57,665 nt of DNA, from positions 1-57,665 of IMG/VR virus record IMGVR_UViG_3300050132_000191; one strand, written 5' to 3'. Below, one piece after another: positions 416 to 57,665 of the stretch. Below the pieces are notes generated by a model. That model worked only from the letters and a program-made list of their open reading frames with translations. It was not told where the DNA came from and did no database searches. Position 1 is the first letter of the stretch; every line of letters begins with the position of its first letter. The position numbers and the translations under genes were made by a program. Origin of the DNA: a virus.

Positions 416-1348
416 ATGGCTCAAATTCGAAAAGCTACGCTGACGCTCAAAGCAATTGATGACGCGATTGCAGCGGATCAGGGTGGAGCATGGCGTCAGC
501 ACCTTCAAAAAGTGTTGCCCGCTATGGGAGACGCTTATCGGGGCAAGGAAGACAACCCCTTCAGAACTCACTTGGGCGCCAGCGTTATTGGCGGCGGATG
601 TGCTCGCGCCATTTGGTACGGATTCCACTGGGCGACACGCCCAACATTCAGCGGGCGCATTCTTCGGCTTTTTAATCGCGGTCACCTTGAAGAAGCAAGG
701 GTGATTTCCGCGCTGCTCACAATCGGTGTCCAAATATTCCAGCAAGACGAAAATGGAAATCAGTTTCGCATCAGCGATGTCGGCGGTCACTTTGGTGGCA
801 GCGGCGATGGCGTAGCTGTGGGAATCCCGGATTTGCCACAGGGTATGCCCTGCCTGCTTGAGTTCAAGACGCACAATGATGCATCATTCAAGAAGTTGCA
901 GAAAGTAGGCGTCCGTGAAGCAAAGTTCGAACACTTTGTCCAGATGCAGGTTTACATGAGAAAAATGGGTTTGACGGTTGCGCTGTACGGGTCAGTGAAC
1001 AAGAATGATGACGACTATTACATGGAAATCATTGAACTGGACACGTCGGTTGGCGATCAGTTTATTGACCGGGGACGTCAAATTATTTTGATGAATCAAG
1101 CCCCAGCAAAGATCAGCGAGTCGCCCGGCTGGTTTGATTGCAAGTGGTGCGATCACAAGCCTGTCTGCCATTTGAAAGTGGCTCCCGAACGCAACTGCCG
1201 GACTTGCAAACATAGCGAAGCGAATGAGGATGGGAATTGGTATTGTAACGTCCCGTCTATGCCAGACGACGGAGGGCTGTCAAGAGTGGATGCCCCGCTC
1301 ACCAAAGAAGAACAGTTTGCAGCGTGCCCGGAATACGCACAGTTCTGA
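416..1348 (+). CDS. PD-(D/E)XK exonuclease, Cas4/RecB-like
   Basis: A 310-residue protein with the RecB/Cas4 nuclease pattern: a GH..E element (GHLEEAR, about residue 89), the metal-binding Asp in GSGDG (about 129), the E-x-K motif in LEFKT (about 148), and a Gln/Tyr motif in FVQMQVYM. After the core there are two cysteine groups, CKWCDHKPVC and CRTCKHSE...WYC; the first resembles the iron-sulfur cysteines of Cas4/AddB, the second may be a separate zinc site. It stops 2 nt before the SF2 helicase start, so the two are co-translated and may act as a nuclease-helicase pair in recombination or DNA processing. Nuclease class is clear; exact polarity and substrate are not. Confidence 0.8.
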   Translation: MAQIRKATLTLKAIDDAIAADQGGAWRQHLQKVLPAMGDAYRGKEDNPFRTHLGASVIGGGCARAIWYGFHWATRPTFSGRILRLFNRGHLEEARVISALLTIGVQIFQQDENGNQFRISDVGGHFGGSGDGVAVGIPDLPQGMPCLLEFKTHNDASFKKLQKVGVREAKFEHFVQMQVYMRKMGLTVALYGSVNKNDDDYYMEIIELDTSVGDQFIDRGRQIILMNQAPAKISESPGWFDCKWCDHKPVCHLKVAPERNCRTCKHSEANEDGNWYCNVPSMPDDGGLSRVDAPLTKEEQFAACPEYAQF

Positions 1349-1350
1349 AC

Positions 1351-3066
1351 ATGAAAATCGAGCCCAGATCCTACCAAATAGAAGCGGTTCGAAGTGTATG
1401 GGACTACTTTCTGGTCAAGCAAGGGAACCCGGTTCTTGCGCTCCCCACCGGCTCGGGCAAATCCATTATTCTGGCGATGTTGCTGGAGTTGATATATTCT
1501 CAGTACCCAAACCAGCGGGTGATGGTTCTAACGCACGCCAAAGAATTGCTAGTACAGGACATGGACAAACTGCTTACAGTGTGGCCATCTGCGCCCGCGG
1601 GGCTCTACAGTGCGGGGCTCAACAAGAAAGAATCCCACAAGAAAATCACATTCGCTGGGGTTGGTTCTGTAGCGAAGAAAGCGGATCTCTTTGGCCACAT
1701 TGACATGGTGTTCATTGACGAAGCGCACCTTGTGAGCCCTAGCGAGGAAACCCTATACCAGAAGTTCCTTGGCGCATTAAAGAAGCGCAACCCCCTCCTG
1801 AAGATTGTGGGGTTAACCGCAACCCCATGGCGCCTCGGAACCGGAAAGATAACGGAGGACGGAATTTTCACGGATGTCTGCTTTGATATAACTGGGATGG
1901 AAGCGTTCAACCGTTTGATCGCGGAAGGGTACATGGCCCCGCTCATCCCGCGCCAGCCAGTGCAGCTCCTGGACACCACGGGCGTCCACTTGCGGGGAGG
2001 GGAGTTCATTGCGTCGGAACTTCAGAGTGCAGTCAATAAACAAGATATCACTTACGCGGCACTGAAAGAGGCGCTGGAGCTTGCACACGACCGGGAGCAT
2101 TGGCTTGTCTTTGCGTCGGGTGTTGAGCACGCTTGCAACATTGCGGATATGCTGAACGACATGGGTGTCAGCGCCATAGCTATCCACAGTAAGATGGGTG
2201 ATGCGGCGCGGGATATTGCAATCGCCGATTTCAAGGCAGGGAAATACCGCGTTGCTGTCAACAATAACATCCTAACGACTGGGATAGACTTCCCTGCAAT
2301 TGATTGCATTGTTATGCTCCGTCCTACCGCTTCAACTGTTCTCTGGATTCAAATGATCGGGCGAGGTACACGGCCATTTCCAGGAAAATTAAATTGCCTC
2401 GTCCTCGACTTCGCTGGGAACACCCGCAGGCTCGGGCCGATCAATGACCCTGTAATCCCGCGTAAGAAGGGCGAAGGTAGCGGGGAAGCTCCTGTCAAGC
2501 TCTGTGACGCTTGCTCAACCTACAACCACGCGAGCGCCCGAGTCTGTTGCTGCTGTGGCGCCGAGTTCAGCTTCAAGGTAAAGATTCAGCAGACCGCTGG
2601 GAGCCTTGCACTGCTCCGCGGGGACGCGCCCGTGGAAACAGTGTTTACAGTTGACCATATTACCTATTCTCGTCATGAAAAGCTCGGGCGTCCGCCAATG
2701 GTCAAGGTGACCTACTATTGCGGGCTCCGTAGCTTTTCCGAGTACGTCTGCATTGAACATGAAGGTTTCGCGCAGCGTAAGGCAAGGCAATGGTGGCGTG
2801 AGCGCAGCTCGTTTAATTCAAATGATAAAGGTTCCCCGTTTCCAATCAGCACTGATGCAGCGTTAGAACAAAGTTCAGCATTATTCACAGCAACTCACCT
2901 TCGAGTGTGGGTGAATAAGCAGTATCCGGAAATCCTTGCACACTGCTTTGACGGAACTGCTTTCGGGAAGCAAGTGGAGCCTGCATCAGCGCCTTCAACT
3001 AATACATACAGCAAGCCCGCGTACCAGTACGGGCCCCACGCCCAACCGGCGGACATACCGTTCTGA
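1351..3066 (+). CDS. SF2 DEAH-box helicase with C-terminal zinc finger
   Basis: A 571-residue helicase, taking the ATG at 1351 directly after the nuclease stop. Motifs in order: Q-motif region at the N-terminus, Walker A PTGSGKS (about residue 32), DEAH (about 120), motif III TATPWR, and motif VI QMIGRGTRP (about 335). This order fits the UvsW/SSL2-type phage helicases that remodel forks and recombination intermediates. A cysteine cluster (CDACS...CCCCG, about 390-415) follows the helicase core. The last four residues are DIPF, the same as the tip of bacterial SSB (see findings). The next gene is separated by a 133-nt gap with promoter-like sequence. Confidence 0.85.
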   Translation: MKIEPRSYQIEAVRSVWDYFLVKQGNPVLALPTGSGKSIILAMLLELIYSQYPNQRVMVLTHAKELLVQDMDKLLTVWPSAPAGLYSAGLNKKESHKKITFAGVGSVAKKADLFGHIDMVFIDEAHLVSPSEETLYQKFLGALKKRNPLLKIVGLTATPWRLGTGKITEDGIFTDVCFDITGMEAFNRLIAEGYMAPLIPRQPVQLLDTTGVHLRGGEFIASELQSAVNKQDITYAALKEALELAHDREHWLVFASGVEHACNIADMLNDMGVSAIAIHSKMGDAARDIAIADFKAGKYRVAVNNNILTTGIDFPAIDCIVMLRPTASTVLWIQMIGRGTRPFPGKLNCLVLDFAGNTRRLGPINDPVIPRKKGEGSGEAPVKLCDACSTYNHASARVCCCCGAEFSFKVKIQQTAGSLALLRGDAPVETVFTVDHITYSRHEKLGRPPMVKVTYYCGLRSFSEYVCIEHEGFAQRKARQWWRERSSFNSNDKGSPFPISTDAALEQSSALFTATHLRVWVNKQYPEILAHCFDGTAFGKQVEPASAPSTNTYSKPAYQYGPHAQPADIPF

Positions 3067-5720: not shown

Positions 5721-5750
5721 GGAGCCGCTTACCTTAGCGGCTCCTTTTTT
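5721..5750 (+). terminator. Rho-independent terminator after the histone-like gene
   Basis: A perfect 9-bp stem GGAGCCGCT / AGCGGCTCC with a 6-nt loop, followed by TTTTTT. It ends 8 nt before the preferred queE start, so queE needs readthrough from upstream or a promoter I cannot identify. Confidence 0.9.
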
Positions 5751-5757
5751 GAAAAAT

Positions 5758-6492
5758 ATGGTTATGAATACTCAACCCATTGAAAAACGTATTGACTCGG
5801 GCTCCGATCAACTGGAAGTCCATTCCATCTTTCGCACCATACAAGGCGAGGGGCCATTCACCGGGCGCCCCGCAATCTTCATTCGGCTCGCAGGTTGCAA
5901 TTTGCAATGTCCGGGATGCGACACAGAATACACGAGCAACCGCCGCCGCCTGTCCGTCTCCCGCATCCTTACAGAGCTCGTTTCGTTCATGCAGCTTGAA
6001 TATGGAATAGAACTAATAGTCATCACTGGCGGGGAGCCGTTCCGCCAAGATATTTATCCTCTCGTATTGGGGTTGATACACTTAGGATTCACAGTACAGG
6101 TTGAAACAAACGGCACACTCCCCCCATCAGTGAATTTCCATAGGTTGTGCTCAAAAGATTTCAGCGAACTGCTCAAGTGCTTTATCGTATGCAGCCCAAA
6201 GACAGGAAGCGTGAACAAACTATTGCTCCCGCTGGTCTGTGCCTACAAGTATGTCATGACAGCCGGGCAAGTTGACGCCGAAGACGGGTTGCCTACACTC
6301 GCGCTTGGGCACAGTGCTGCTCCGCGTGTTGCACGCCCGCACGCTGGGTTCAATGGCCCTATTTATGTGCAGCCCTATGACAGCGGAGCTCTGTTTCCCA
6401 ATTCGGAAAATTTAATTGCGTGCATCAGGTCAGTGATGAAGCATAACTATACGCTCCAACTTCAAGTCCATAAAATTATCGGATTGGAATAA
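5758..6492 (+). CDS. queE: QueE, 7-carboxy-7-deazaguanine synthase
   Basis: A radical-SAM enzyme of about 244 residues that converts 6-carboxytetrahydropterin to 7-carboxy-7-deazaguanine. The [4Fe-4S] motif is CNLQCPGC (CX3CX2C, as in QueE), preceded by the family signature TIQGEGPFTGRPAIFIRLAG, and followed by the glycine-rich SAM motif TGGEP. Start is uncertain: ATG at 5758 or 5764, or TTG at 5749, which would lie in the terminator; no clear ribosome site separates them. It is the first gene of a compact set: it ends 2 nt before gat-queC, which overlaps queD, which overlaps folE. Confidence 0.9.
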   Translation: MVMNTQPIEKRIDSGSDQLEVHSIFRTIQGEGPFTGRPAIFIRLAGCNLQCPGCDTEYTSNRRRLSVSRILTELVSFMQLEYGIELIVITGGEPFRQDIYPLVLGLIHLGFTVQVETNGTLPPSVNFHRLCSKDFSELLKCFIVCSPKTGSVNKLLLPLVCAYKYVMTAGQVDAEDGLPTLALGHSAAPRVARPHAGFNGPIYVQPYDSGALFPNSENLIACIRSVMKHNYTLQLQVHKIIGLE

Positions 6493-6494
6493 TC

Positions 6495-7880
6495 ATGTGC
6501 TCAATCCTTGGTGCAGTGCTCCACGATGTGGACAACAATACGAAACGCCGGCAGGTGAATGCTATCCTTGACTATATCTGGACCACCAGCCAGGAACGAG
6601 GGCGTGATGGGCGCGGGTATGTGAGTTTTGACAGCTTCGGCCATAGCGGGGACTTCGTTTTCCATAGCGAGGAGCGTCGGGACCCGACACGCTGTTCTTC
6701 GGTGGATCTTAACGCGCCTATGGTAATGGGTTTATGCCCACGGATGACAGTGGTCGGGAATATGCGGGCGGAGCCGACTACCGAATATGTTTCCGTCAAA
6801 CGGAGAAGCGATCAGCAACCGTACACCTGCGGGGGCTGGTCAATTGTGCATAACGGAACAATCGCCAACGACAAGGAACTCCGAACTCATGCTCTTCCCA
6901 CTAGCATTGACAGCGCATCAATCGCCGAACTGCTGGCCCCTATGCGACCCACGTTGGACAACTTTGCGGGAGTGATCCGCAAGCTGAAGGGAAGTTTCGC
7001 AATTCTTGCGACTCACGAAAACTGCCAGACATCAATCTTCGTTGCCGCGAATTACCGCCCAATTTGGTACATTGAAACGGAGTTCGGATATTTCTTCGCA
7101 AGCGCCAGGAACTACCTGCCCATCGCTTGGGCGCCGCGAATGCTTACGCCATACACTGTTGCAGAGTTTGGCGAGTGCGTGCGATCGTTCCCCCTATACA
7201 AGTCGGAGCAAAGTGACACAGCCCTTGTCGTATGCAGCGGGGGCCTGGACAGTGTGGTCAGTGCTGCCTACGCTCAGAAGAAACTTGGTTATAAGTTACA
7301 CCTCATTCACTTCCTGTACGGGAGCCGAGCGGAAGGCCCCGAGGTCATAGCTGTGCGAGCTGTGGCGCGGGCGCTTGGGGCCGAGATCACTTTGTTCCCA
7401 TTACCAGTGTACCAGAAAGGGGATTCGCCGCTGCTGGACCCCGATAGCAAAGTGGCTGGCGGGGAAGCAGGCGCCGAATTTGCTCATGAATGGGTGCCAG
7501 CTCGAAACTTGCTTCTTCTTAGCGTTGCAACTGCATTCGCGGAAGCTCGCGGCATCAGCGTGATCGTGTTGGGGAACAACCTCGAAGAGGCTGGCGCGTA
7601 CCCTGATAATGAACCCGAATTCATTGCGAAATTTAATGACTTGCTTCCCTTTGCAGTTGGTGACGGAAAGCGAATGAAAGTTATAATGCCTGTAGGCAAT
7701 ATGATGAAACATGAGATCGTCGCACTCGGAAAAGAAGTTGGGGCCCCGATGGAGCTGACATGGAGCTGCTATCGGGCTGGCGAGTTGCATTGTGGAAAAT
7801 GCGGCCCTTGTTTTATGAGACGCCGCGCTTTTGAAATTAACGGGTTTCCTGAAGTTATTCAATACAAGGATCAACAATGA
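6495..7880 (+). CDS. gat-queC: Gat-QueC fusion: class II glutamine amidotransferase plus 7-cyano-7-deazaguanine synthase
   Basis: A 461-residue fusion. The N-terminal ~230 residues are an Ntn amidotransferase: Cys2 (MCSILGA) would be the exposed nucleophile, with the glutamine-site elements NMRAEP and HNGTIAND. The C-terminal half is QueC: PP-loop SGGLDS (about residue 247), and a zinc site C..HCGKCGPC near the end. QueC makes preQ0 with ATP and ammonia. In Crenarchaea and in phages such as 9g, Gat-QueC is associated with making archaeosine, the amidine of preQ0; here that would be deoxyarchaeosine in DNA. No QueF-like reductase is seen, which argues against a preQ1 end product. Its stop overlaps queD (ATGA). 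Confidence 0.9.
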   Translation: MCSILGAVLHDVDNNTKRRQVNAILDYIWTTSQERGRDGRGYVSFDSFGHSGDFVFHSEERRDPTRCSSVDLNAPMVMGLCPRMTVVGNMRAEPTTEYVSVKRRSDQQPYTCGGWSIVHNGTIANDKELRTHALPTSIDSASIAELLAPMRPTLDNFAGVIRKLKGSFAILATHENCQTSIFVAANYRPIWYIETEFGYFFASARNYLPIAWAPRMLTPYTVAEFGECVRSFPLYKSEQSDTALVVCSGGLDSVVSAAYAQKKLGYKLHLIHFLYGSRAEGPEVIAVRAVARALGAEITLFPLPVYQKGDSPLLDPDSKVAGGEAGAEFAHEWVPARNLLLLSVATAFAEARGISVIVLGNNLEEAGAYPDNEPEFIAKFNDLLPFAVGDGKRMKVIMPVGNMMKHEIVALGKEVGAPMELTWSCYRAGELHCGKCGPCFMRRRAFEINGFPEVIQYKDQQ

Positions 7881-8332
7881 CATTCAAATCAACGAAAACT
7901 TATGGGGCGAATATAGGCCTCAGCGCCTGCTTCCGTCAATGGAAAGCTGAAAGCCACTGCAAGCTGTTGCACGGGTATGCCCTTGAAATCAGTTTTGAAT
8001 TTGAGACTGAAGAGCTAGACATCCGAAATTGGTGCGTCGACTTTGGCAGCATGAAGTCCCTGAAGGCGATGCTCGAGAACACGTTTGACCACACGCTGCT
8101 CGTCGCCGTGGATGACCCGCATCTTGAAACTCTTCTTCTTCTTGGCAAGCTCGGCATCGCTCGCGTGGTGGTGGTGCAGGCCACGGGCTGCGAAAAGTTC
8201 GCGGAGCTTATTTATGAATGCGCCGAACAGTGGCTCAAGGACAACGGCTACGCCCCGCGCTGCAAACTTGCGAAAGTTGAAGTTCGGGAGCACGCGGGCA
8301 ACTCAGCAATTTACACGAGGACAGCGGTATGA
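7877..8332 (+). CDS. queD: QueD-like 6-carboxytetrahydropterin synthase
   Basis: A 151-residue member of the 6-pyruvoyl-tetrahydropterin synthase family, placed between gat-queC and folE with ATGA overlaps on both sides. The catalytic Cys (SHCKLLHGY), the Asp-His pair (FDHTLL) and the C-terminal Glu (REHAG) are present. Two of the three usual zinc histidines are not where expected: the AAH position reads ACF and the HGH position reads HGY. A nearby His (SHC) may substitute, and I recall similar FRQW...LHGY sequences in a divergent QueD branch. The position in the pathway makes the QueD role very likely. Confidence 0.85.
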   Translation: MTFKSTKTYGANIGLSACFRQWKAESHCKLLHGYALEISFEFETEELDIRNWCVDFGSMKSLKAMLENTFDHTLLVAVDDPHLETLLLLGKLGIARVVVVQATGCEKFAELIYECAEQWLKDNGYAPRCKLAKVEVREHAGNSAIYTRTAV

Positions 8333-9741
8333 AATCAGTGGATCAGAAATGGAAAGACGAGCAGATTATTCGTAACCTGCTCAAGCTCATTTGCCCGAAC
8401 CATGATCGGGAAGGCCTACTGGAAACACCTGAACGGGTTGCCAAAGCCTGGGAGCATTGGTGCAGCGGGTACTCCGTGGATATTGGCAAACTGCTCAAGT
8501 GTTTCAAGGATGGGGGCGAGCGATACGACCAGATGGTTCTTGTCAAAGACATACCAATCTATTCAAAATGTGTAATTGGCTCAACCTTCGTGGAGACACC
8601 GAAAGGGAGAATCCCAATTAGCAGGTTGAAGGATGGGGACTGGATCTACACCATGTCCCCTATGACACAGGAGCTTAAAATCACCCGATGTGTCAACCCA
8701 AGAATCACCCAAAGAAACGCAAATCTTTTGGCGGTACATACCGATAACGATACGTTGATTTGTACCCCGGATCACAGAGTCCTTACTACGGACGGTGAAT
8801 GGATAGAAGCACAGGATTTAAAGAACGGTCAACGCTTGGCTTCCCTTTATCGTGCGGCTGAAACAATGTTCAGCGGGAAGCAATCCTATTCAAAACTAAT
8901 TGCTTCCCGATATACAAGGTGGCACGACGGAATTAAAATAGATGGTGCCTCTCACGGTGTTTTAGAACACCAATTCGTCAAACAACAAATTGACGGAATT
9001 GATTACAAGGACGGACGTAGATTTGTAACGCATCATTTGGATGAAAATCTTTGGAATAATCTGCCAGAAAACCTTGAAATCCTTTCAATAGCAGACCATA
9101 ACAGAGCACACGAAAGAACTCAAAAACTCGCCCACAGTCAGGTTCGAAAGGACGCTGCTGCAATTGCTAGTGGAAGGGCGGAAGTTCGTGCAAAGCGTTC
9201 AGCTTCTGTTAAGGCTCATTGGGACAAACTGAAAGCAAGCCCTGAAGAATATCAGAAGAGAACGCAAGCTATGAGCGATGGTATTTGGGCACAAGGGGCT
9301 CGCAACCATGTTGTAATCGGCGTCGAGGTATTGGATTACACAGAGGACGTCTGGTGCATGACAGTTCCAGAAACCGAATTGTTCTTTGCTAACGGTATCG
9401 CGGTTCATAACTGTGAACATCACTTGGCGGATATCTTTGGGACTTGCTCAATCGCATATATTCCAAACGGTAAAATCGTGGGCCTGAGTAAACTGTCCCG
9501 CCTTGCTGATGCTTTCGCTCGCCGCCTACAAGTTCAAGAACGGCTCACGGATCAGATCGCCGATGCTTTAGTGGAGCACCTACAACCTGTCGGTGTGGGT
9601 GTTTTAATCCGCGCTCGCCATATGTGCATGGAATCGAGGGGCGTCTGCCAGCAGGGGCACCATACAGTGACCACAGCCCTTCGCGGCGCGATAAAGGACG
9701 AGCCACAAACTCGCTCCGAATTCCTCCTCCTTGCCAAGTAG
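8329..9741 (+). CDS. folE: FolE, GTP cyclohydrolase I, interrupted by an intein
   Basis: GTP cyclohydrolase I turns GTP into dihydroneopterin triphosphate, the entry step of 7-deazaguanine synthesis. The 470-residue precursor carries a 281-residue intein (8569..9411); removing it joins IPIYSK to CEHHLADIFG and leaves a 189-residue enzyme of normal length. The zinc and active-site residues lie in CEHH and in the C-terminal RHMCMESRGV, followed by the family pattern HHTVTTALRG. The intein sits immediately before the Cys of CEHH, so no active enzyme can form without splicing. It starts by ATGA overlap with queD. Confidence 0.92.
   Translation: MKSVDQKWKDEQIIRNLLKLICPNHDREGLLETPERVAKAWEHWCSGYSVDIGKLLKCFKDGGERYDQMVLVKDIPIYSKCVIGSTFVETPKGRIPISRLKDGDWIYTMSPMTQELKITRCVNPRITQRNANLLAVHTDNDTLICTPDHRVLTTDGEWIEAQDLKNGQRLASLYRAAETMFSGKQSYSKLIASRYTRWHDGIKIDGASHGVLEHQFVKQQIDGIDYKDGRRFVTHHLDENLWNNLPENLEILSIADHNRAHERTQKLAHSQVRKDAAAIASGRAEVRAKRSASVKAHWDKLKASPEEYQKRTQAMSDGIWAQGARNHVVIGVEVLDYTEDVWCMTVPETELFFANGIAVHNCEHHLADIFGTCSIAYIPNGKIVGLSKLSRLADAFARRLQVQERLTDQIADALVEHLQPVGVGVLIRARHMCMESRGVCQQGHHTVTTALRGAIKDEPQTRSEFLLLAK
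8569..9411 (+). mobile_element. Intein with HNH-type homing endonuclease region in FolE
   Basis: An in-frame 281-residue insertion. The N-terminal splice block starts with Cys1 (CVIGSTFVETPKG, then RISRLKDGDW-like block A), block B carries TPDHRV, and the C-terminal end is FFANGIAVHN followed by the extein Cys (CEHH). Cys1, terminal His-Asn and Cys+1 are all intact, so it should splice. In the middle, HHLDENLWNNLPENLEILS and DHNRAH match the HNH homing-endonuclease pattern, rather than the commoner LAGLIDADG. The insertion lies at the most conserved point of FolE, as expected for a homing element. Confidence 0.93.
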
Positions 9742-9765
9742 TTTGAACGATTGTAAAATTGCTGC

Positions 9766-10689
9766 ATGAACCTCTATTGCGCCGCGGTTTTCAGTAACAA
9801 TTACAAACCCGGTCAGAATCGGTATTTGAAGCTGACGGATCACGAAAAGACTCTAGTTCAGAATATCCCAAATATCTTGGAAAGCTGGCACTATGTCGGG
9901 AAACAAAAGTTCGTGGATGAAATGCGTGCGGACAGCGCCCAAATTTTTCTCGACTCTGGAGCGTTCTCTGCTTACACGTTGGGCGTTGATTTGAAGGTCC
10001 CGGATTACTGCGCTTACATTCAGCGGAACCTGGATATCATACGCCGGGACGGCAATGTGGTTATGGCATCCGTGCTGGATGGCATTGGTGACCCTCTTAA
10101 GACATATCAGAACCAGATGGAGATGGAAGCCCGCGGGTGCAGGCCTTTGCCCTGTTTCCATGCTGGCGAAGATGAAAGGTATTTGGAATTTTATGTCAAG
10201 AACTACGAATATATCACGCTCGGCGGGATGGTTGGCAGTTCCACGAAACAACTCTGCATTTGGTTGGACCGTATTTGGGACAGATTTCTGACAGATGGGA
10301 GCGGTCGCCCGCGGCTTAAAGTTCATGGCTTCGGCATCACGGCTATTCCGATCATGGAGCGTTACCCATGGCATAGCGTTGATTCTTCGTCGTGGATCCA
10401 GGGAGCTGCGTTTGGCAGCATTATGACTCCCCAATGGGGACCGCTATCCGTATCAGAAAAAAGCCCGAGCAGGCACGACGCTGGTCAACATGCGACGACA
10501 TTGACAGCGGTGGAGCAAGATATGGTGTTTCGAATGCTGGAGGAGCAAGGGTTCACTTATGAGCGCCTGTCAACTGTTTACGAGTCCAGAGCAGCTTATA
10601 ATTTATGGGCTTACGGTGTAATCAATGAAATGATGAACGCTGCCAACAATTATGAAAAATTTCGTAGCCACGTTCAGGAGCTTTATTAA
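9766..10689 (+). CDS. dpdA: DpdA-like DNA 7-deazaguanine transglycosylase
   Basis: A 307-residue TGT-like protein. Recognisable elements are FLDSGAFSAY (about residues 64-73, first catalytic Asp region), VLDGIGDP, the substrate-pocket LGGMVG, and HGFGIT with SVDSSSW near residue 200. This pattern is that of phage DpdA rather than tRNA TGT, and lacks the TGT zinc-binding cysteines. DpdA exchanges guanine in DNA for preQ0 or a derivative. It starts 24 nt after folE without a clear ribosome site and abuts the clamp gene (stop directly followed by ATG). Confidence 0.85.
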   Translation: MNLYCAAVFSNNYKPGQNRYLKLTDHEKTLVQNIPNILESWHYVGKQKFVDEMRADSAQIFLDSGAFSAYTLGVDLKVPDYCAYIQRNLDIIRRDGNVVMASVLDGIGDPLKTYQNQMEMEARGCRPLPCFHAGEDERYLEFYVKNYEYITLGGMVGSSTKQLCIWLDRIWDRFLTDGSGRPRLKVHGFGITAIPIMERYPWHSVDSSSWIQGAAFGSIMTPQWGPLSVSEKSPSRHDAGQHATTLTAVEQDMVFRMLEEQGFTYERLSTVYESRAAYNLWAYGVINEMMNAANNYEKFRSHVQELY

Positions 10690-11643
10690 ATGCTTTCAAA
10701 ATTAAAGTTCGTTCAGGGTTCGATCGCCAAGAAGGATTTTGTACCTGCTCTCACGCATTTCTCGATCGAGAATAATACGGTTCGGGGTTATAACGGGATG
10801 CTGGCACTGTGCAGTCCAATCCCCTTCGACATCGAATGCAAACCAAAAGCGGACCCGCTGATCCGTGCCATTGCAAACTGCACGGAAACGGTTTCCCTGT
10901 CCCTCACGCCTGCGGGCCGCTTGTCCATCAAGTCGGGAAAGTTCAAAGCGTTCATCGATTGCATTGAAAGTGATTCGGACTACATTCGGCCTGTAGGCGA
11001 CCCAATGGAAATCGATGGTGCAGCACTGCTCAAGGCGCTGAAAACGATTGCGCCGTTCATTGGAGACGATGCTTCGCGCCCATGGTCGAATGGGGTTCTG
11101 TTGCTGGGGCAAAGTGCATTCGCGACCAACAATGTCACGCTGGTGGAATACTGGGCTGGCACCACTGTGGCCAACCCAATCAACATCCCGCGGGCAGCGA
11201 TCAAAGAAATGCTTCGCATCAACGAGCCCCCTATTTCTGCACAGCTTGCGGAAAATGCGATCACGTTTCACTACACTGGCGACCGCTGGCTTCGCACGCA
11301 ACTGCTCGAAACCAAATGGCCGGATTTGAGAAAAGTCTTAGACCGCCCCAGCAATCCTATTCCGTTGGACGTCGCATTGTTCGAAGCTATTGCAACAATC
11401 AAACCCTTCATGGATAAAATGGGGCGCATACTGTTTCGCGAGGGGCGTATTGCAACTCACGAAAATGAAACCGAAGGGGCAAGCTATGAGGTTGAAGGGT
11501 TTAACCACACTGGCGTCTACCAAGTTGATATGCTGAATCTCCTTAATGGTCCCGCCCAGACAATCGACTGGAGCGGTTATCCGGGCCCCTGTATGTTCTT
11601 TGGCGACCGCTTGCGTGGTGCGATTATTGGGATGCGTGCTTGA
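10690..11643 (+). CDS. DNA polymerase sliding clamp, beta-like
   Basis: A 317-residue protein with the repeated beta-sheet pattern of phage sliding clamps: LSLTPAGRLSIKSGKFKAFI matches the first clamp domain turn, and the alternating acidic helices and strands continue in about three units. It would encircle DNA and tether the polymerase encoded by the next gene (start 1 nt after this stop). No clamp loader was seen in the window, so the host loader or self-opening is implied. Length is close to that of other phage clamps and shorter than host DnaN (about 366). Confidence 0.7.
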   Translation: MLSKLKFVQGSIAKKDFVPALTHFSIENNTVRGYNGMLALCSPIPFDIECKPKADPLIRAIANCTETVSLSLTPAGRLSIKSGKFKAFIDCIESDSDYIRPVGDPMEIDGAALLKALKTIAPFIGDDASRPWSNGVLLLGQSAFATNNVTLVEYWAGTTVANPINIPRAAIKEMLRINEPPISAQLAENAITFHYTGDRWLRTQLLETKWPDLRKVLDRPSNPIPLDVALFEAIATIKPFMDKMGRILFREGRIATHENETEGASYEVEGFNHTGVYQVDMLNLLNGPAQTIDWSGYPGPCMFFGDRLRGAIIGMRA

Positions 11644-11644
11644 G

Positions 11645-13627
11645 ATGAGATTCGATTCAATCGGCCTCTGGTGGGAGGACTTCGATAAGGTCAAAGTCCT
11701 GAAGGAAGTCAAGAAGTGCATCCCACCGGAGCGGACTTGGGAATTGGATACTTACCTGCCCGGGTTGGAGGAAGCAAAGGAATTCTGTGTCCCTTTAATG
11801 ACCGAAGTTGAAATTGGATGCGCTGCGGTATTAAAAGAACCACTGATATTTGACGTCGAGTGCTACGCGAATTATTTCCTGGTCGCGTTCATGTCCGTCA
11901 TATCGGGTAAGGTATTTTTCCTGGAGCTATCAGACAGCGTTGCGCTCAACACCGAAAAACTCCGCTGGGTGATGCAGAACTTCTGTGTAGTCAGTTTCAA
12001 CGGGCGCCAGTACGACGTTCCAATCGTGTCGCTTGCTATAGCTGGGAAATCCACCCGGGCAATGAAAGCAGTATCCAATCAAATTATTGTTGAAGAGTTG
12101 CGCCCGAGTGACATACTGCGAACGCAAAAAGTGAAAATGCTCAAGTGTGACCACATTGACTTGATAGAGTTGGCTCCTCTTAATCAAAGTCTGAAAATGT
12201 GTGCGGGCAGGTTGCACGCTCGCAAGATGCAGGACTTGCCGTTTCACCCCGAGAAAGTTTTGAATGAAGACCAAATCACAATCACCCGCTGGTATTGTGT
12301 GAACGACTTGCGGAATACGTTGCTTCTATACCAGGCGCTGAAAGAGGAAATCGATCTTCGCGTAGGCATGGGTAAGGAATACGATTTGGATTTGCGTAGC
12401 AAGTCAGACGCACAGATTGCGGAAGCAGTGATTGGGCATGAGGTGCAAGTTCTGAACGGCCGGCGCCCAGTGGCTCCCACAATCGCCCCGGGCACCCTGT
12501 ACCGTTACAAGGTGCCCGCGTTCCTTGTGTTCCAGTCCGCGTTGCTCCGTTGGGTACTCGAGCTCGTAAGGGATACAATTTTCGTCGTTGGTGATCATGG
12601 GGGCGTTGAAAAGCCAGCAACCCTGAACGGGCTGAAATTTGAAATTGGAAATGGCTCCTACCGCATGGGGATCGGCGGGTTGCACAGTATGGAGAAAGGA
12701 GCGACCCGTAGGGTGGATGGAACTTTCGTGCTCAAGGACATTGACGTTGCTTCCAACTATCCCCGGATTATTCTGAATCAACGCCTGTATCCACAACATC
12801 TCGGGTCCGCTTTCCTAAAGGTTTACCAGCGCATTGTCGACAGGCGCTTGCAAGCGAAAGCCCGTAAGGACGACCTAGTCGCGGGGTCTTTGAAAATTGT
12901 CGTGAACGGATCCTACGGCAAGTTGGGAAGCAAATACTCAATTCTGTATTCCCCGGACCTGTTGATACAAGTCACGCTCACAGGCCAGCTCGCGTTGTTG
13001 ATGCTCATTGAGCGCCTGGAGCTTGCCGGGATATCCGTCGTCAGCGCGAACACTGACGGGATTGTGGTCAAGTGCCCCGTCGGTCTGCAAGCGTTGCTGG
13101 CGCAAATTGTGGCGCAGTGGTGCAAAGACACAAACTTCGAGACAGAAGAAATGGAATACCTTGCTCTTTATAGCAGGGACGTGAATAATTACATAGCGGT
13201 GAAAAAAGACGGAACGTTCAAATCCAAGGGGGCCTATGCAGAGATGGGCATTGATAAGAACGCGACGGGGCAGATCAGCGTTGACGCGGTGACTGCTTTG
13301 CTCGTCAAAGGAATACCAATTCGGGAGTCCGTTCGCACTTGCAAGGATATCCGAAAGTTCGTATTCGTTCGCACTGTGAACGGTGGGGCTGTGAAGGACG
13401 GCCAATACCTAGGCAAAGCAGTCCGCTGGTATTATGCGGAAGGGGAGGAGGGGGACATCATTTACGCTCGCAGCGGAAATCGTGTACCGCGTTCCGAGGG
13501 GGCGAGGCCACTGATGGAGCTGCCCGACACGTTTCCAGCGGACGTGGACTTCTCCTGGTACGAAGCGGAAGCTGAGAAAATGCTGGCGAGCATTGGGGTG
13601 AGCATTGGGGCCAATGCTACTGTATAG
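11645..13627 (+). CDS. Family B DNA polymerase with 3'-5' exonuclease
   Basis: A 660-residue polymerase starting at the ATG at 11645, directly after the clamp stop. Exonuclease motifs: Exo I DVE (FDVECY), Exo II FNGRQYDVP, Exo III YCVNDLRNT. Polymerase motifs: A DVASNYP, B KIVVNGSYGKLG, C ANTDGIVV. Motif C reads NTDG where most family B enzymes have DTDS; the single Asp is retained. No TPR insertions typical of protein-primed polymerases are obvious. This enzyme must copy and tolerate a 7-deazaguanine-containing template. Paired with a primase-polymerase/helicase at 51383. Confidence 0.88.
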   Translation: MRFDSIGLWWEDFDKVKVLKEVKKCIPPERTWELDTYLPGLEEAKEFCVPLMTEVEIGCAAVLKEPLIFDVECYANYFLVAFMSVISGKVFFLELSDSVALNTEKLRWVMQNFCVVSFNGRQYDVPIVSLAIAGKSTRAMKAVSNQIIVEELRPSDILRTQKVKMLKCDHIDLIELAPLNQSLKMCAGRLHARKMQDLPFHPEKVLNEDQITITRWYCVNDLRNTLLLYQALKEEIDLRVGMGKEYDLDLRSKSDAQIAEAVIGHEVQVLNGRRPVAPTIAPGTLYRYKVPAFLVFQSALLRWVLELVRDTIFVVGDHGGVEKPATLNGLKFEIGNGSYRMGIGGLHSMEKGATRRVDGTFVLKDIDVASNYPRIILNQRLYPQHLGSAFLKVYQRIVDRRLQAKARKDDLVAGSLKIVVNGSYGKLGSKYSILYSPDLLIQVTLTGQLALLMLIERLELAGISVVSANTDGIVVKCPVGLQALLAQIVAQWCKDTNFETEEMEYLALYSRDVNNYIAVKKDGTFKSKGAYAEMGIDKNATGQISVDAVTALLVKGIPIRESVRTCKDIRKFVFVRTVNGGAVKDGQYLGKAVRWYYAEGEEGDIIYARSGNRVPRSEGARPLMELPDTFPADVDFSWYEAEAEKMLASIGVSIGANATV

Positions 13628-13692
13628 GTGGCACGCTGATCTCAGCCCCTGCCGCCATCTAGTGCGTGTAAACTATTGGAAAAGGAGTTACT

Positions 13693-13956
13693 ATGGGTGA
13701 TATGGCGGAAGTGTTTAGTGATTTACGGAAAGCGAGGAAAGAAGAGCGGGAGGTCCGGGCAACTGTGAATATCAGTAAGCTACAGGAACTCCGCATTCCA
13801 GCATTCGAGCAGTCCAAGAACGTGTTCCGAATTGACACGGAGCAAGGGGCGGTGATGTATTATCCGTCAAGCGCCACGTGGCAGCACAAAGGGAAAATAA
13901 TGCGGGGTAATACTCGGGCGTTGAAGGATTGGATTACCAGAAACGGGTTGCTGTGA
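13693..13956 (+). CDS. Hypothetical small protein
   Basis: An 87-residue protein with a strong ribosome site (AAAAGGAG, 6 nt from the ATG). N-terminal charged helix (FSDLRKARKEEREVRA), then a small beta-rich part (NVFRIDTEQGAVMYYPSSATWQHKGKIMRGN) and a terminal helix. A similar short protein is frequent in phages, function unknown to me. Its stop overlaps the next start (GTGA). Confidence 0.65.
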   Translation: MGDMAEVFSDLRKARKEEREVRATVNISKLQELRIPAFEQSKNVFRIDTEQGAVMYYPSSATWQHKGKIMRGNTRALKDWITRNGLL

Positions 13957-41117: not shown

Positions 41118-42080
41118 TCAAGGTACTGCGACATCCTTGCTCAGATAGTTTACTTGGTCTTTGAGTGCCAGCTTTTGGTTATGTGCTTGCTTGCGTTCTG
41201 CTTTGTTCACGTTGTTCGCTAGATCAGCAGCGATCCAGTCGGCTTCGGTGGGCTGTGGCTTGGGTTGTTCTGTTTGCATGGGTGCATTGTAGGTGATAAT
41301 AACCGCTCTACCAGGGCGCCAGCCTTGCGGAATATCAGCATCCGGTTTGATAAGTTTAGAATTCTGCCCGTCCGTAACCCATTTTCTGCCAGCCCTATTA
41401 GCACTCTTTCTTTCACGCTCCGCAGGGTTACTCCAACGATTTTTCGCCGCGTTGCTCATCTTTACCAACTCTCCAGGTTTAGCCCAGCGTGCGATTGCGG
41501 AAATACTTACTTTCTCACGCTCTTCCACTTTAGAAAATCTTGTTTTGGCGGAAATACTATTCTTTAGTCTCGCTTCGGGTGAGCTTAGTACAGCAGTTCT
41601 ATTGCGTTGACTTTCCGGAGTGTGCATTTGAGCCACCCGGAGATGAAACGCTTCCGGGTGCTTCCTTATTGTTTCTTTAGCCGCTTTGCTTTGTTTTAAT
41701 TTAGTTTCCGGTTTATCCATACCAGCTTGATACTTTGCTCGGCAGACAGGATCTGCCCATGGGGTAGTCACAAGAGTTTTTAATGTTTGTCTTGTCTGCT
41801 CGCTATGCTTACATCCAGAAGAACCCTCGCCTCCATCCGTGCGATTTGTGAGTTTGCACCCCATCCTACGAAAGCAACCCATCAAGAAAATTTCGTGCTC
41901 AAAAGCCTCGACTTCTAACTCCCAGCGAGCAACAATTTCCACCTTTATCCCATACTTAGCGACAGTATTTTTCCAGTAAGGGTTCCTACCTCCTGGGTCA
42001 TGCGCCCGTCGTCCCTTGCCCTTCCCAATATAGAAAACTGCATTGTCAGATTCGCGGCGGTGTAAATAGGTGTAGAACAT
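41118..42080 (-). CDS. GIY-YIG homing endonuclease with NUMOD-like repeats
   Basis: A 320-residue protein between terminase and portal. GIY-YIG elements: FYTYLHRRES at the N-terminus, VFYIGKGKGRR and the catalytic Glu in EHEIFLMG (about residue 62). Then four or more NUMOD-type DNA-binding repeats (S..AK.R W..P.ER pattern) and WVTDGQNSKLI...GWRPGR. The last 53 residues (from MQTEQPKP) differ from the rest and could be a former separate small gene (internal ATG at 41279). The gene is a mobile passenger. Confidence 0.9.
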   Translation of the reverse strand: MFYTYLHRRESDNAVFYIGKGKGRRAHDPGGRNPYWKNTVAKYGIKVEIVARWELEVEAFEHEIFLMGCFRRMGCKLTNRTDGGEGSSGCKHSEQTRQTLKTLVTTPWADPVCRAKYQAGMDKPETKLKQSKAAKETIRKHPEAFHLRVAQMHTPESQRNRTAVLSSPEARLKNSISAKTRFSKVEEREKVSISAIARWAKPGELVKMSNAAKNRWSNPAERERKSANRAGRKWVTDGQNSKLIKPDADIPQGWRPGRAVIITYNAPMQTEQPKPQPTEADWIAADLANNVNKAERKQAHNQKLALKDQVNYLSKDVAVP

Positions 42081-42094
42081 GACTTTATTTTAAC

Positions 42095-43522
42095 TTATTT
42101 TCCAAGTTTTGCCCACGTCGATAAAGTCGTGTTATTCACGAGCTCGTTGAACGCCCGAGAAGTGGCGTCAACTTGATCGTCGTACTTCCCGTGGTCAAAC
42201 TCGCACAGTTCGTCAAGGTACTCTGTATTCCAGTCACCTTCCAAAATATCAACATTACCAGCCTCCGCCTGAGCTGCCATGGGGAGTGCCCGTATCCATT
42301 TCGAGCCGCTCTCCGTGCTGCTCGCAACAATGTACCCAGCAAGCTGGCCGACCTGATAGGTGGCCTGCGCCTTCCCCGCTGCACCCGGATCTTGTGGGAA
42401 ACTCTGGGCGCAAGTATATCCGTCCTGGGACGCGGTGGATTTGATTAGTCTGTCAACACCAGCTGGCGAAAGTTGTGCTCTGGTGGCATTCACAATGATG
42501 AAGCGCCCCTCCTTCGTGCGCCCCAGCTTCACTCCCGCAGTGTAATCGCCAGCCCCTTCCGTTGCAGCGAAGTCCCAACCCCGAATCATCTTCGTTCCCA
42601 GCGGCACAGCTTGCACGACGTTGAACCAGTGCCGTTTATACAGCCCGCCACCGCGTGGCGCTGGACGTTGCTGAAGCTGCCCAGCGGTTGCATAGCTCCC
42701 CATCTGCTTTTCAAGCGCCTTGACTGTGACTTCGCTAAACCGTTCAGGAAACAGTAGTTCCCCTTCCACCTTGCGTGGATCCGTAAACCCCAGGAACGTG
42801 GTGCATCTGCGTTCTGCTTCAAATCGCATCGGCAGCATCAAGTGAGTATATCCGAGGTCCTCGTTAAGAATAATCCCGGAGGTATCCTTTTCATTCAGCC
42901 GCTGCATAATGACCACAATGGCTGACGCTTCGTTGTTCACCCGCGTTGGCAATGCTTCCGTGAATGTGAGCCTTGCAGCTTCCAAGTCCGCATCACTGTT
43001 CGCGCTGTCAACCGATAAGGGGTCATCCAGCAACACCCTGTCACCCCGCGAACCCGTCATGGAGCCAAAGGGCATACACTCACGGAACCCCGTTTGGTCG
43101 TTCTCGAACTTTGTCTTCGCGTTCTGGTCGCCCGTAAACTTGATGGGCCAGCGGGCTTGATACCATTCGGACTGAAGGAGGCGCCGGCACTTTAAGTTAT
43201 CACGGACTGCTAGGGTTTCTTTGTGAGCGGTGCCAAGATAGCGATAGGAGGGATGCTCCTTCGGTCCCCATTCCCAGGCGGGCCAGAACACACCAACGAG
43301 CAGGGACTTCATGCACCCTGGCGGGACATTCATGAGGAGCTTGAGAATGTCCCCATTCGTTACCGCTTCAAGGTGCTGGCAAATTGCGTCAAGTGACCAG
43401 CCCCATCTAAGTGGCGCGGCGGGCTCCAGGACGTGCCAAGCCGCACGCACGAACCCAGCGAAGGACCGAGCTGCGATTGCCCGGTCTAGTTCAATCTCAC
43501 TTGGGAGCAGCATCAGGGGCAC
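42095..43522 (-). CDS. terL: Terminase large subunit
   Basis: A 475-residue DNA-packaging motor. ATPase: Walker A-like VPPGCMKS (about residue 66), the adenine-binding and Walker B region RVLLDDP (about 163), and the coupling segment VVIMQRLNEKD. Nuclease: Asp in GWDFAATEGAGDYT and the final DHGKYDDQVDATS. Overlaps the small subunit by 26 nt. Confidence 0.92.
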   Translation of the reverse strand: MPLMLLPSEIELDRAIAARSFAGFVRAAWHVLEPAAPLRWGWSLDAICQHLEAVTNGDILKLLMNVPPGCMKSLLVGVFWPAWEWGPKEHPSYRYLGTAHKETLAVRDNLKCRRLLQSEWYQARWPIKFTGDQNAKTKFENDQTGFRECMPFGSMTGSRGDRVLLDDPLSVDSANSDADLEAARLTFTEALPTRVNNEASAIVVIMQRLNEKDTSGIILNEDLGYTHLMLPMRFEAERRCTTFLGFTDPRKVEGELLFPERFSEVTVKALEKQMGSYATAGQLQQRPAPRGGGLYKRHWFNVVQAVPLGTKMIRGWDFAATEGAGDYTAGVKLGRTKEGRFIIVNATRAQLSPAGVDRLIKSTASQDGYTCAQSFPQDPGAAGKAQATYQVGQLAGYIVASSTESGSKWIRALPMAAQAEAGNVDILEGDWNTEYLDELCEFDHGKYDDQVDATSRAFNELVNNTTLSTWAKLGK

Positions 43523-46220: not shown

Positions 46221-46985
46221 TTAGCACCCGAGGCGTGGTGCGGATGAACTGGAACCTGTCACACCCCGCGTGCTTACGTTGACGGACTTACCGTCACAGA
46301 TGCCGCTGCTGTAGGCGTCGTCCGTGCTGATGGTGCTTGAACTGTATTTGACTTTCTGCTCGCCAAACCGTTCTGCCACCAATTGCGCCTTAATCACCAT
46401 CAGCGAGGTACTCGAGGAGCTTGCTCGAACTTCCTTAGCCTTTTCCGCTGTCAGTGCCCGCAGGCTGCTGCTGATGCCAGTTGTGACACCCAGGCGATAA
46501 CTGTTCGCGGATGCGCGGCCCAGCACTGCATAATCATCCGTCTTCAGGTAAACCTTAACCAGCCGGTTCACTGTTGCGACTAAGTAGTTGAACATATATA
46601 CAGCTACCTTGACGTCAGCATCAAACCCGTAGAAGCGCACCACAGCAACTTTGTCAGGACGCGGGATTTTGCAGCGGCAGTCATTCGCCTTTGCAATTTG
46701 CAGCGCAAGGATGCTGGCCCAGGTGGGGACTTCCGGGTGGGCTGTCTCATTCGTGTTCGGTGCTGCCACGCAATCTCCCTCAGCCATATCGTTGCCAGCT
46801 TTGAGCGAGGCAACAATCACATCGGCGTGCTCGAGTTGATACTCCCGCATGATGCGCTCTGCCATCCCTGCCGCTGCGCTTGCTTCTTCAGGATTAGCGC
46901 GGTCGTCACCCGCAATGGCGAGCAGCTTGGCAATGCGACGCATCACGCTGTCTAGGTTTTCTGGGGTTGTTTGTTCGGTAGTCAT
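46221..46985 (-). CDS. DUF2786-domain protein
   Basis: A 254-residue protein from ATG 46985, which has AAGGA upstream; a longer form to 47285 would overlap the zinc-finger gene in another frame and looks spurious. DUF2786: VMRRIAKLLAIAG, NPEEASAAAGMAERIMREY, then the second domain (ILALQIAKANDCR, YLVATVNRLVKVY) and a Ser-rich tail. Family members are common in phages and bacteria, role unknown. Confidence 0.75.
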   Translation of the reverse strand: MTTEQTTPENLDSVMRRIAKLLAIAGDDRANPEEASAAAGMAERIMREYQLEHADVIVASLKAGNDMAEGDCVAAPNTNETAHPEVPTWASILALQIAKANDCRCKIPRPDKVAVVRFYGFDADVKVAVYMFNYLVATVNRLVKVYLKTDDYAVLGRASANSYRLGVTTGISSSLRALTAEKAKEVRASSSSTSLMVIKAQLVAERFGEQKVKYSSSTISTDDAYSSGICDGKSVNVSTRGVTGSSSSAPRLGC

Positions 46986-47070: not shown

Positions 47071-47397
47071 CTAGAACGGAATATCGTCGTCAAAATCATC
47101 GAAGCCAGACTTGAGAGCAGGCTTGGGCGCTGCCCGCAGTGCAACCACGGCTGGCGCTCGGTTGTCTTCGAATGGTACCGCATCAACGTCGTCTTCATCA
47201 AACTGCGGACACCCGAAAGCAATGACGCGGGCTGGAGGGCGGACAGGTGGGTGCACTTGGCCACAGGTTTCCGTCGCCTCATCAAACCTCTTGCAGTTCA
47301 GACAAGTTGACGTCAACTCAGCTTCCTCCATCACTTGCTGGAGCACGCCCAGGAGTTCCAAGCGGAATTCTTGTATTACAGTTGGCAGGGATTTCAT
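47071..47397 (-). CDS. Zinc-finger protein with SSB-like C-terminal tip
   Basis: A 108-residue protein. Cysteines in TCLNCKRF, TCGQVH and FGCPQF form a likely zinc site. The second half is acidic and Pro/Ala-rich, and the last residues are DDFDDDIPF, identical at the end to E. coli SSB (DFDDDIPF), the peptide that recruits PriA, RecQ, RecO, exonuclease I and HolC. There is no OB fold. See findings. Confidence 0.75.
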   Translation of the reverse strand: MKSLPTVIQEFRLELLGVLQQVMEEAELTSTCLNCKRFDEATETCGQVHPPVRPPARVIAFGCPQFDEDDVDAVPFEDNRAPAVVALRAAPKPALKSGFDDFDDDIPF

Positions 47398-47585
47398 AGT
47401 TGCACCCTACACGTCAAGTGCGCCGCGTCATCATCCTTGCGGAACAAGTGGGGATACATATTTCTCGCGTCAATATGCAGTCGGTCAATCGCGGCAAGGT
47501 TCTTCCAATTCCCGGCGGTGATGAGTGCAACGCGCACCAGTGGCGGAAGGATTTCCGCGGGTTGGATGTCTTTTGGTTCTTTCAT
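47394..47585 (-). CDS. Hypothetical protein
   Basis: A 63-residue protein, MKEPKDIQPAEILPPLVRVA at the start and AAIDRLHIDARNMYPHLFR near the end, resembling short proteins often found near replication-related genes in phages. ATGA overlap with the zinc-finger gene. Confidence 0.62.
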   Translation of the reverse strand: MKEPKDIQPAEILPPLVRVALITAGNWKNLAAIDRLHIDARNMYPHLFRKDDDAAHLTCRVQL

Positions 47586-56190: not shown

Positions 56191-56249
56191 TCTTTCACAC
56201 TTTTTCTATTAAAATAATGCACCCCTCTAAAATGCGGGGGAGGAATCAA

Positions 56250-57089
56250 ATGTCAATTTTACAAAATGTCACAACTGGTGTTTCAAGCACTGGCATCCGC
56301 ATGATAATCGCGGGAGTCGAGAAGATGGGGAAAACAACTTTTTCATCCGGTGCGCCTGCCGCATTGCTTGTCCCGCTGGAGGTCGGATACGCTGGTGTCA
56401 ACGTGGCAAAGACGCCCATGCTCCAGACATATGAGGAGGTTCTAGCTTTCCTTTTTGAAGTAACACAACTCGCACAGCGCGGTCAGTTCCCGTACAAAAC
56501 AATCATATTCGACAGTGCGACAGCACTGGAACGTCATATCCATGACTATGTGCTCCGCTTGGACCCTACATACAAGGCAGGGGAGAGCAAGACGGCGACG
56601 ATGGAGAGTGCTCACGGAGGGTACGGTAAAGGATACACACTGGCAAATTCCATTCTGGACGGCCTGCTGAAACAGTTTGACATGCTGGCGGTGAATGCTG
56701 GTATCAACATAGTGCTCACCTGCCACGTGTTCAGCTCTAAAATCACCGATCCAACTGTAGGTGAATATGACTCTTGGGACCTGCTACTGCATAGCCCCAA
56801 GAATCAGAAGACCTACGGCAAGCGGGAGCTCCTAACGCAATGGGCTGACGTGATTGGTTTCCTTTATGACCCGGTGTTCTTAGTTACTGCGGTTAAGAGC
56901 AACATGACACGCGCTATGTCACAGAACAAAGGGCGCATCCTGGGTCTATCCCGGACCCCTGCATACACTGCGGGCAATCGCTTCGGGATTATTGGAGAAA
57001 TTTCTGTGCCAGCGCCACCAGCCAACGGTTGGAACGCTTTCGCGGAATGCTTGTATAAGACTTGCGGGGTCGATGTTTACACTCGCTGA
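56250..57089 (+). CDS. Sak4-like RecA-family ATPase
   Basis: A 279-residue protein from ATG 56250 (GGGGGAGGA upstream). Walker A GVEKMGKTT (about residues 22-30), Walker B region TIIFDSATALERH, and GYGKGYTLANSIL. This is the Sak4/AAA_24 single-strand annealing type, usually next to a ssDNA-binding protein; the DUF669 gene follows. Likely the phage recombinase. Confidence 0.8.
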   Translation: MSILQNVTTGVSSTGIRMIIAGVEKMGKTTFSSGAPAALLVPLEVGYAGVNVAKTPMLQTYEEVLAFLFEVTQLAQRGQFPYKTIIFDSATALERHIHDYVLRLDPTYKAGESKTATMESAHGGYGKGYTLANSILDGLLKQFDMLAVNAGINIVLTCHVFSSKITDPTVGEYDSWDLLLHSPKNQKTYGKRELLTQWADVIGFLYDPVFLVTAVKSNMTRAMSQNKGRILGLSRTPAYTAGNRFGIIGEISVPAPPANGWNAFAECLYKTCGVDVYTR

Positions 57090-57169: not shown

Positions 57170-57665
57170 TTGGCACAACTCAGTTTTGATGCAACTGGCG
57201 TCAAGCCCGCGGAAGGTGCGCTCGGCGCCATCCCTGCTGGATGGTATAATGTGGTGATCGCAGCTTCTGAAATGAAAGCTGCGAAAGCCGAAGGCAACTA
57301 TTATCTGGAATTGCAACTCCAGGTGATCGATGGCCAGTACGCGAATCGCAAGGTTTACACTCGCCTGAACATCTGCAACGCCAATCCGGTGGCCCAGGAA
57401 ATCGCTTACAGAGAACTGTCCGCCATTTGCCATGCGGTAGGCTTGCTTCAAGTGGGCGACAGCCAGCAGCTCCACGGGCTCCCGTTCAAGGTAAAGGTTT
57501 CGGTTCAGGCCGCGACTGGCGAATATGAAGCTGGAAACAACGTGCGAGCATACAAAAACATCAACGAGAAAGTTGACATGGTTGCTGCACCCGCTGCTCC
57601 GGCAGCTTGGGCCCCGCCTGTTGCGGCTGCACCTGCCGCCCCTGCCGGTTGGACGCCTCCGCCAG
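57170..57665 (+). CDS. DUF669-type predicted ssDNA-binding protein, N-terminal part
   Basis: The gene continues across the window edge at 1..158; together 217 residues. I use the TTG at 57170, with GGAG 7 nt upstream and the protein start MAQLSFDATGV that is usual for DUF669. Core pattern: AEGALGAIPAGWYNVVIAASE, K-AEGNYYLELQLQVIDGQYANRKVYTRLNI and IAYRELSAICHAVG. The tail from about residue 145 is Ala/Pro/Trp-rich. Neighbour of Sak4-like ATPase, consistent with a ssDNA-binding partner. Confidence 0.85.
   Translation, partial: MAQLSFDATGVKPAEGALGAIPAGWYNVVIAASEMKAAKAEGNYYLELQLQVIDGQYANRKVYTRLNICNANPVAQEIAYRELSAICHAVGLLQVGDSQQLHGLPFKVKVSVQAATGEYEAGNNVRAYKNINEKVDMVAAPAAPAAWAPPVAAAPAAPAGWTPPP

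Follow-up and report, generated by a model that had tools for sequence, protein, structure and literature searches.

An SSB-like C-terminal tip is carried by a zinc-finger protein, a RadD-like helicase or a sliding clamp in phage recombination and replication cassettes

The C-terminal tip through which bacterial SSB engages its partners has so far been treated as a property of SSB itself. In E. coli, this end of the protein (SSB-Ct) has the sequence MDFDDDIPF and is bound by RadD with an affinity of 5.4 uM in a pocket where R21, R49 and R145 surround a hydrophobic hole, an interaction that stimulates the ATPase of the helicase (PMC10238739). A phage counterpart is found in HK620, whose DUF669 SSB terminates in NDYPPF and requires these last six residues to bring Sak4 to ssDNA and to stimulate it there (PMC5928155); this is the only relevant paper that we found when searching the literature for phage proteins with a DDDIPF end. 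In phage T7, both the gp4 helicase and the gp2.5 SSB use acidic C-terminal tails for contacts within the replisome. Those of the helicase touch basic patches on T7 polymerase (PMC8472574).

The locus described here is part of the viral record IMGVR_UViG_3300050132_000191 of IMG/VR, which was analysed over its entire length of 57,665 nucleotides (the window). On the minus strand, positions 47071–47397 encode a protein of 108 residues with the C-terminus KSGFDDFDDDIPF. Its last eight residues, DFDDDIPF (codons 47074–47097), are identical to the end of E. coli SSB, as had been claimed in the original prediction and is borne out by the sequence of the open reading frame. The protein thus shares with bacterial SSB an acidic, flexible tail with a terminal phenylalanine, but it has neither an OB fold nor any other similarity to SSB and instead places the tip on a separate protein containing a zinc knuckle. 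The proposed absence of an OB fold agrees with a Pfam search, which returned no match including the SSB domain and thus offers no known domain family for the zinc finger, and with a predicted structure (pLDDT 79), in which a helix comprising residues 6–25 is followed by a cysteine knuckle of high confidence and a tail with little order. Fold searches of the zinc finger against the PDB, made with Foldseek, did not yield any matches. The knuckle spans residues 32–63 (47209–47304, minus strand; pLDDT ~90), includes the stretch RPPARVIAFGC and contains four cysteines (C32, C35, C45 and C63), by which the protein is predicted to bind zinc. The start codon of the gene shares four bases with the stop codon of an upstream open reading frame of 63 residues (47394–47585), an overlap that resembles the arrangement of a coupled gene pair.

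The cysteine-rich core assigns the window protein to PHROG 23504 (E 2e-11, residues 19–69), a family of short phage proteins of unknown function for which a tip had not been noted. In 91 aligned members, all four cysteines are invariant, and the core RPPARVIAxGC is retained in the window protein. Relatives identified by tblastn originate from phages of Stenotrophomonas, Pseudomonas, Xanthomonas, Vibrio, Rhizobium, Sphingomonas, Paracoccus, Escherichia, Burkholderia, Shewanella and others, and scans of viral contigs added 80 loci to the set, while the window protein on its own, used as query against viral contigs, gave no match. A single-pattern search of bacterial genomes found the family in one contig only, which is part of a Bacteroidota MAG and is probably phage, and by this search the family thus appears to be nearly absent from bacterial chromosomes.

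The tip is a general feature of the family. The first locus set contains 96 distinct zinc-finger proteins that are complete, and 82 of them terminate in [IVL]P[FY]; in 77 of these, the five positions in front of this motif include an acidic residue. The proteins without this end finish in PPF (8) or in another sequence (6). Of the 119 zinc fingers in a larger set, 104 have the canonical end, with position –3 occupied by Ile (82%), Val (13%) or Leu (5%), followed by Pro in 100% and Phe in 98%. With an acidic residue at position –4 in 68% of cases, these tips are less acidic than the tip of SSB. An acidic residue followed by [IVL]P[FY] is found at the end of only 16 of ~5,600 open reading frames of at least 60 residues outside the family in the same loci, and 14 of these 16 encode a helicase or sliding clamp that belongs to the cassette. 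Since the conservation of the tip, found in 77 of 96 relatives compared to this background, is family-wide, a chance resemblance to SSB can be ruled out.

Although it clearly matches the family, the window protein has a longer tail than its relatives, 15 of which terminate 8 to 13 residues past the last cysteine, exactly where the window protein contains the sequence VDAVPF (residues 71–76; 47170–47187, minus strand). Judged from the alignment, this presumable site of an ancestral short tip has become internal in the window protein, where it is followed by an extension of 32 residues that carries a new full tip at its end. A comparable extension ending in YDDDIPF is found in the relative L030. 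Both genomes also contain a helicase tip, which in the latter case (L219, encoded on the same contig as L030) reads FVFDDDIPF, and in both the zinc-finger gene is found away from the helicase. In the window, the two genes are located at 47 kb and 1.3–3.1 kb and are thus not adjacent, unlike in most relatives, and it appears from the sequences that the zinc-finger gene has moved out of the cassette and gained its 32-residue SSB-like tail. With respect to a host ssb gene as a possible source of the tip, we found one weak match to a Polaromonas plasmid SSB that covers 12 residues only. The cysteine core resembles the C-terminal finger of the Cas4 exonuclease of the cassette, with an hhalign probability of 87–89% in a direct comparison made without background search, and the small protein may have derived from this finger.

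In the fetched genomes of relatives, the usual gene order is Sak4, DUF669, (others), Cas4-type exonuclease, helicase and zinc finger. The zinc-finger gene mostly overlaps with or directly follows the end of the gene encoding a RadD-like SF2 helicase and is itself followed either by clamp and polymerase genes or by 7-deazaguanine genes. The corresponding components in the window are all encoded on the plus strand and include a Sak4-like AAA_24 annealase (56217–57089; PF13479, E 1.5e-24), a DUF669 SSB-like protein (57170–57665; PF05037, E 2.7e-21), a Cas4/RecB-type exonuclease with a C-terminal zinc finger (416–1348), which was assigned by an HMM of annotated Cas4 exonucleases and a profile-profile match, the helicase (1324–3066) and a DnaN-like sliding clamp (10690–11643; clamp HMM, E 6e-69), which in this phage ends in RGAIIGMRA and thus without a tip. 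The DUF669 gene is split by the ends of the record, with its remaining part read in frame at positions 1–158. The nominally linear record therefore probably represents an entire genome that is circularly permuted and was cut inside this gene. When joined, the frame finishes with PAAPAA, in line with the earlier statement that the DUF669 protein of the phage would lack the tip. A gene located just downstream of that of the zinc-finger protein (46221–46985) encodes a DUF2786/DUF7168 protein (PF10979, PF23771), and Rhizobium phage RHph_Y17 (L021) and Synechococcus phage Ssp-JY38 (L286) also have a DUF2786 gene, which in these phages is part of the cassette.

The helicase of the window finds its best PDB match in RadD (E 1e-61). 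Its match to the NCBIfam model of RadD (6e-79) scores 265.9 bits and thus stays under the equivalog cut-off of 720 bits, so that by its sequence we classify the protein as RadD-like and not as RadD. A RadD fold was also recovered in a Foldseek search with a model of the homologous helicase of L221 (7r7j, E 1e-37). The window helicase ends in PADIPF (ADIPF codons 3049–3063) and therefore carries a second tip, which the original prediction had overlooked. In a maximum-likelihood tree of the helicases, it groups with relatives that carry a helicase tip, with L214 and L221 as its nearest neighbours. Helicase tips obey the full SSB rule, with acidic residues at positions –4, –5 and –6 in 100%, 82% and 94% of cases.

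To describe how tips are distributed within the cassette, we used 123 non-redundant helicase loci obtained by clustering at 90% identity and a DUF669-seeded scan of 80 loci. The protein encoded downstream of the zinc finger was identified as sliding clamp by an HMM of annotated clamps. Among the 123 loci, the tip is located on the zinc finger only in 88 loci, on the helicase only in 16 and on the clamp only in 4, while 13 loci have none. Two tips are found in one locus each with a helicase and a remote zinc finger (the window) and with a zinc finger and a clamp. Tips are found in none of 84 complete DUF669 proteins, 77 Sak4 proteins or 93 Cas4 proteins. The DUF669 protein of zinc-finger phages has thus either lost its tip or never had one. 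Helicases that are not followed by a zinc finger usually carry a full SSB tip (such as SDFDDDIPF, EDMDDDIPF or ADLDDDIPF), and whole-record searches of 15 helicase-tip records from the DUF669-seeded scan found no zinc finger anywhere in 13 of them. Clamp tips accompany zinc fingers that have lost theirs (L065, L085–L091 and L054) and are also found in L228, which has neither a zinc finger nor a helicase tip and whose clamp ends in SDMDDDIPF, while L070 has a clamp tip although its zinc finger keeps its own.

Helicase tips and adjacent zinc fingers tend to exclude each other (Fisher p=1.2e-6 at 90% clustering and 5.9e-5 at 60% clustering), and in the four loci where both are present, the zinc fingers end in EEPPF or EAPPF. 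On the helicase tree, we count about five changes of the helicase tip and three for the clamp-only group, which suggests that the tip has moved several times. Tree-independent pairs amount to 0.0 in the same and 1.7 in the opposite direction, which are too few for significance alone. The same pattern is found in five named phages that were fetched by helicase homology alone, each of which shows one tip in the fetched region around the helicase. The tip is located on the helicase in Pseudomonas phage PAJD-1 (LDDDIPF), Escherichia phage SLUR75 (DPDYVPF) and Escherichia phage ChristophMerian/Bas19 (DFDDDIPF), on the clamp in FtMidnight (PDKDIPF) and on the zinc finger in Synechococcus phage Ssp-JY38 (EDNEDIPF). 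Phages thus normally carry a single tip, yet this rule is not absolute, as illustrated by the window with its two tips. No tip was found in L249, a nearly whole record of 49 kb, or in the partial records L227 and L235, and no substitute was seen for the zinc fingers of L071, L076, L077, L083 and L052, which have no canonical tip.

Further candidates for tip carriers were observed at three loci. In L257, the Cas4 exonuclease (1548–2717) ends in DEDVPW, which is possibly another site of the tip. In L255, where the zinc finger is also tipped, a gene of 667 residues that follows the clamp (11776–13779), and that by its position is probably a DNA polymerase, ends in FDLDDEIPF. Finally, a protein of 121 residues without Pfam family, encoded just upstream of the helicase in L062 (1188–1553), ends in INYDIPF.

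We propose that the peptide constitutes a detached SSB tip, which is displayed by the recombination and replication machinery to recruit tip-binding proteins, be they partners of the host SSB or proteins of the phage, a reading to which we assign a probability of about 60%. A separate zinc-binding carrier would be employed because the ssDNA-binding protein of the phage, DUF669, has no tip. The zinc-finger module would thus present an SSB docking peptide on the phage apparatus. In most relatives, it is made beside the RadD-like helicase and probably acts with it, and it would anchor the tip on the helicase or on DNA; the order of genes and the substitution of carriers are suggestive of contacts with the helicase, DUF669 or DNA. 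Since the same peptide is fused to the tail of the helicase or clamp in other phages, it would be functional wherever it is tethered to the machinery, where it would dock into SSB-tip pockets and in this way bring partners to the phage DNA. In the window phage, this role would be assumed by the longer tail of the zinc finger with its full tip, with the helicase keeping the weaker ADIPF. We infer the recruiting role as well as the identity of the partners, which most likely are host SSB-interacting proteins and possibly also the Sak4 annealase of the phage. From the distribution of tips, it would seem that one copy is needed on the DNA machinery of these phages and none on their own SSB-like protein. 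A more general formulation, in which the SSB tip is a mobile and trans-acting element hopping between zinc finger, RadD-like helicase and clamp next to a tip-less DUF669, with the machinery instead of the coated ssDNA serving as hub for host SSB-interacting proteins, is more tentative, and we place its odds slightly below even.

The best-surviving alternative assumes that the tip binds a protein of the phage, above all Sak4, and that the Sak4-docking tail of DUF669 was moved onto the zinc finger, helicase or clamp. The dependence of Sak4 on the NDYPPF end of the HK620 SSB makes this a serious proposal (PMC5928155). HK620 shares with the phages studied here the Sak4 recombination module but differs in placing the tip on the SSB itself. 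HK620-type DUF669 proteins mostly have acidic tails ending in PF or DF, and their loci carry tips in the absence of a zinc finger, while in nearly all loci of our set Sak4 adjoins a DUF669 protein that is tip-less. Conversely, the phage tips, and in particular the D/E-D-D-I-P-F ends of the helicases, are closer to the strict bacterial consensus than NDYPPF and fit the conserved pocket of host proteins, which makes host SSB-interacting proteins more likely than a partner from the phage. We thus consider a phage partner of this kind unlikely, at odds of about one in four.

Less probable still is that the tip would dock onto the RadD-like helicase of the phage in a pocket equivalent to that used for SSB by E. 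coli RadD, thereby regulating its ATPase. The resemblance of the phage helicase to RadD in sequence and fold, the binding of SSB-Ct by RadD with the ensuing ATPase stimulation (PMC10238739) and the adjacency of the zinc-finger and helicase genes are all compatible with such an interaction. Of the putative pocket, the hydrophobic positions are largely kept, with Lys or Arg found at the position of R145 in 109 of 123 phage helicases. However, R21 and R49, each of which RadD requires to bind SSB, are not retained at these positions, with the alignment showing an insertion near R49. Moreover, tips occur on clamps too. RadD receives the tip of SSB, whereas several of the RadD-like phage helicases bear one themselves. 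In the model of the L221 helicase, the C-terminal 28 residues lack order (pLDDT 35–47) with the tip being undocked, which suggests that it would be displayed rather than folded back and leaves docking of a helicase tip onto its own helicase unsupported.

The original prediction had offered the role of an adapter or of a decoy, with RecQ, PriA, RecO and HolC as candidate host partners. Of these, the adapter holds in outline, as the near-universal conservation of the SSB-like docking peptide at the C-terminus and its exchange with the tails of helicases and clamps support such a role. SSB-tip pockets are common to many host nucleases and helicases, and the window protein mimics the host tip exactly, as would suit a free inhibitor titrating or blocking ExoI, RecQ or RecJ. 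This possibility is disfavoured since a decoy need not sit on, or replace the tail of, DNA-bound replication enzymes, as is the case for the helicase and clamp tips, and since phages mostly carry a single tip; at the micromolar affinity measured for RadD (PMC10238739), high expression would be required in addition. We thus regard a decoy as improbable, at roughly one chance in eight.

Similarly improbable is a coupling of helicase, clamp and phage DNA polymerase in a replisome, which finds a parallel in the acidic tails by which the T7 helicase contacts T7 polymerase (PMC8472574) and in the clamp and polymerase genes that come after the zinc finger in many relatives, since Ile-Pro-Phe adds to mere acidity an element specific for SSB-tip pockets and since the gene after the clamp in L255 has a tip of its own. 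The T7 proteins are unrelated to those described here, and T7 is not known to have a separate tail-carrying protein. Their tail sequences presumably do not follow the strict DDDIPF motif.

In the literature that we searched, from which subscription journals were mostly outside the scope, we found no description of a detached or exchangeable SSB tip in phages. The confirmed identity of a single tail with that of E. coli SSB thus leads to a finding broader than originally proposed, namely a conserved and exchangeable SSB tip in a phage recombination and replication cassette. If phages indeed detach the tip onto a helicase, a clamp or a zinc-finger carrier, this would put a name to a family of proteins that lacks annotation but is present in many phages, among them some isolated on E. 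coli K-12 and P. aeruginosa PAO1. The location of the tip would then predict where host factors are recruited, and a single Phe codon would offer a clean genetic handle on which SSB-interacting proteins these phages need.

Several observations concern other proteins of these phages. A Pro-x-Trp motif (PPWAQ, APWGQ) is found near the C-terminus of 62 of 84 DUF669 proteins (for example in L002, L018 and L020), and this end is a possible second docking peptide; similar GWG or PWG ends are found in the clamp tails of L053, L066, L082 and L092. In the window, the genes at 5749–10689 are assigned, by position and order only, to a pathway for 7-deazaguanine modification of DNA that the relatives encode (QueE, QueC, QueD, FolE, DpdA). 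Finally, the product of 41118–42080, starting with MFYTYLHRRESDNAVFYIGKGKGRRAHD, is by its resemblance presumably a GIY-YIG homing endonuclease, whose gene adjoins an open reading frame of 475 residues (42095–43522) that we take, by reading its sequence, to be terminase-like.
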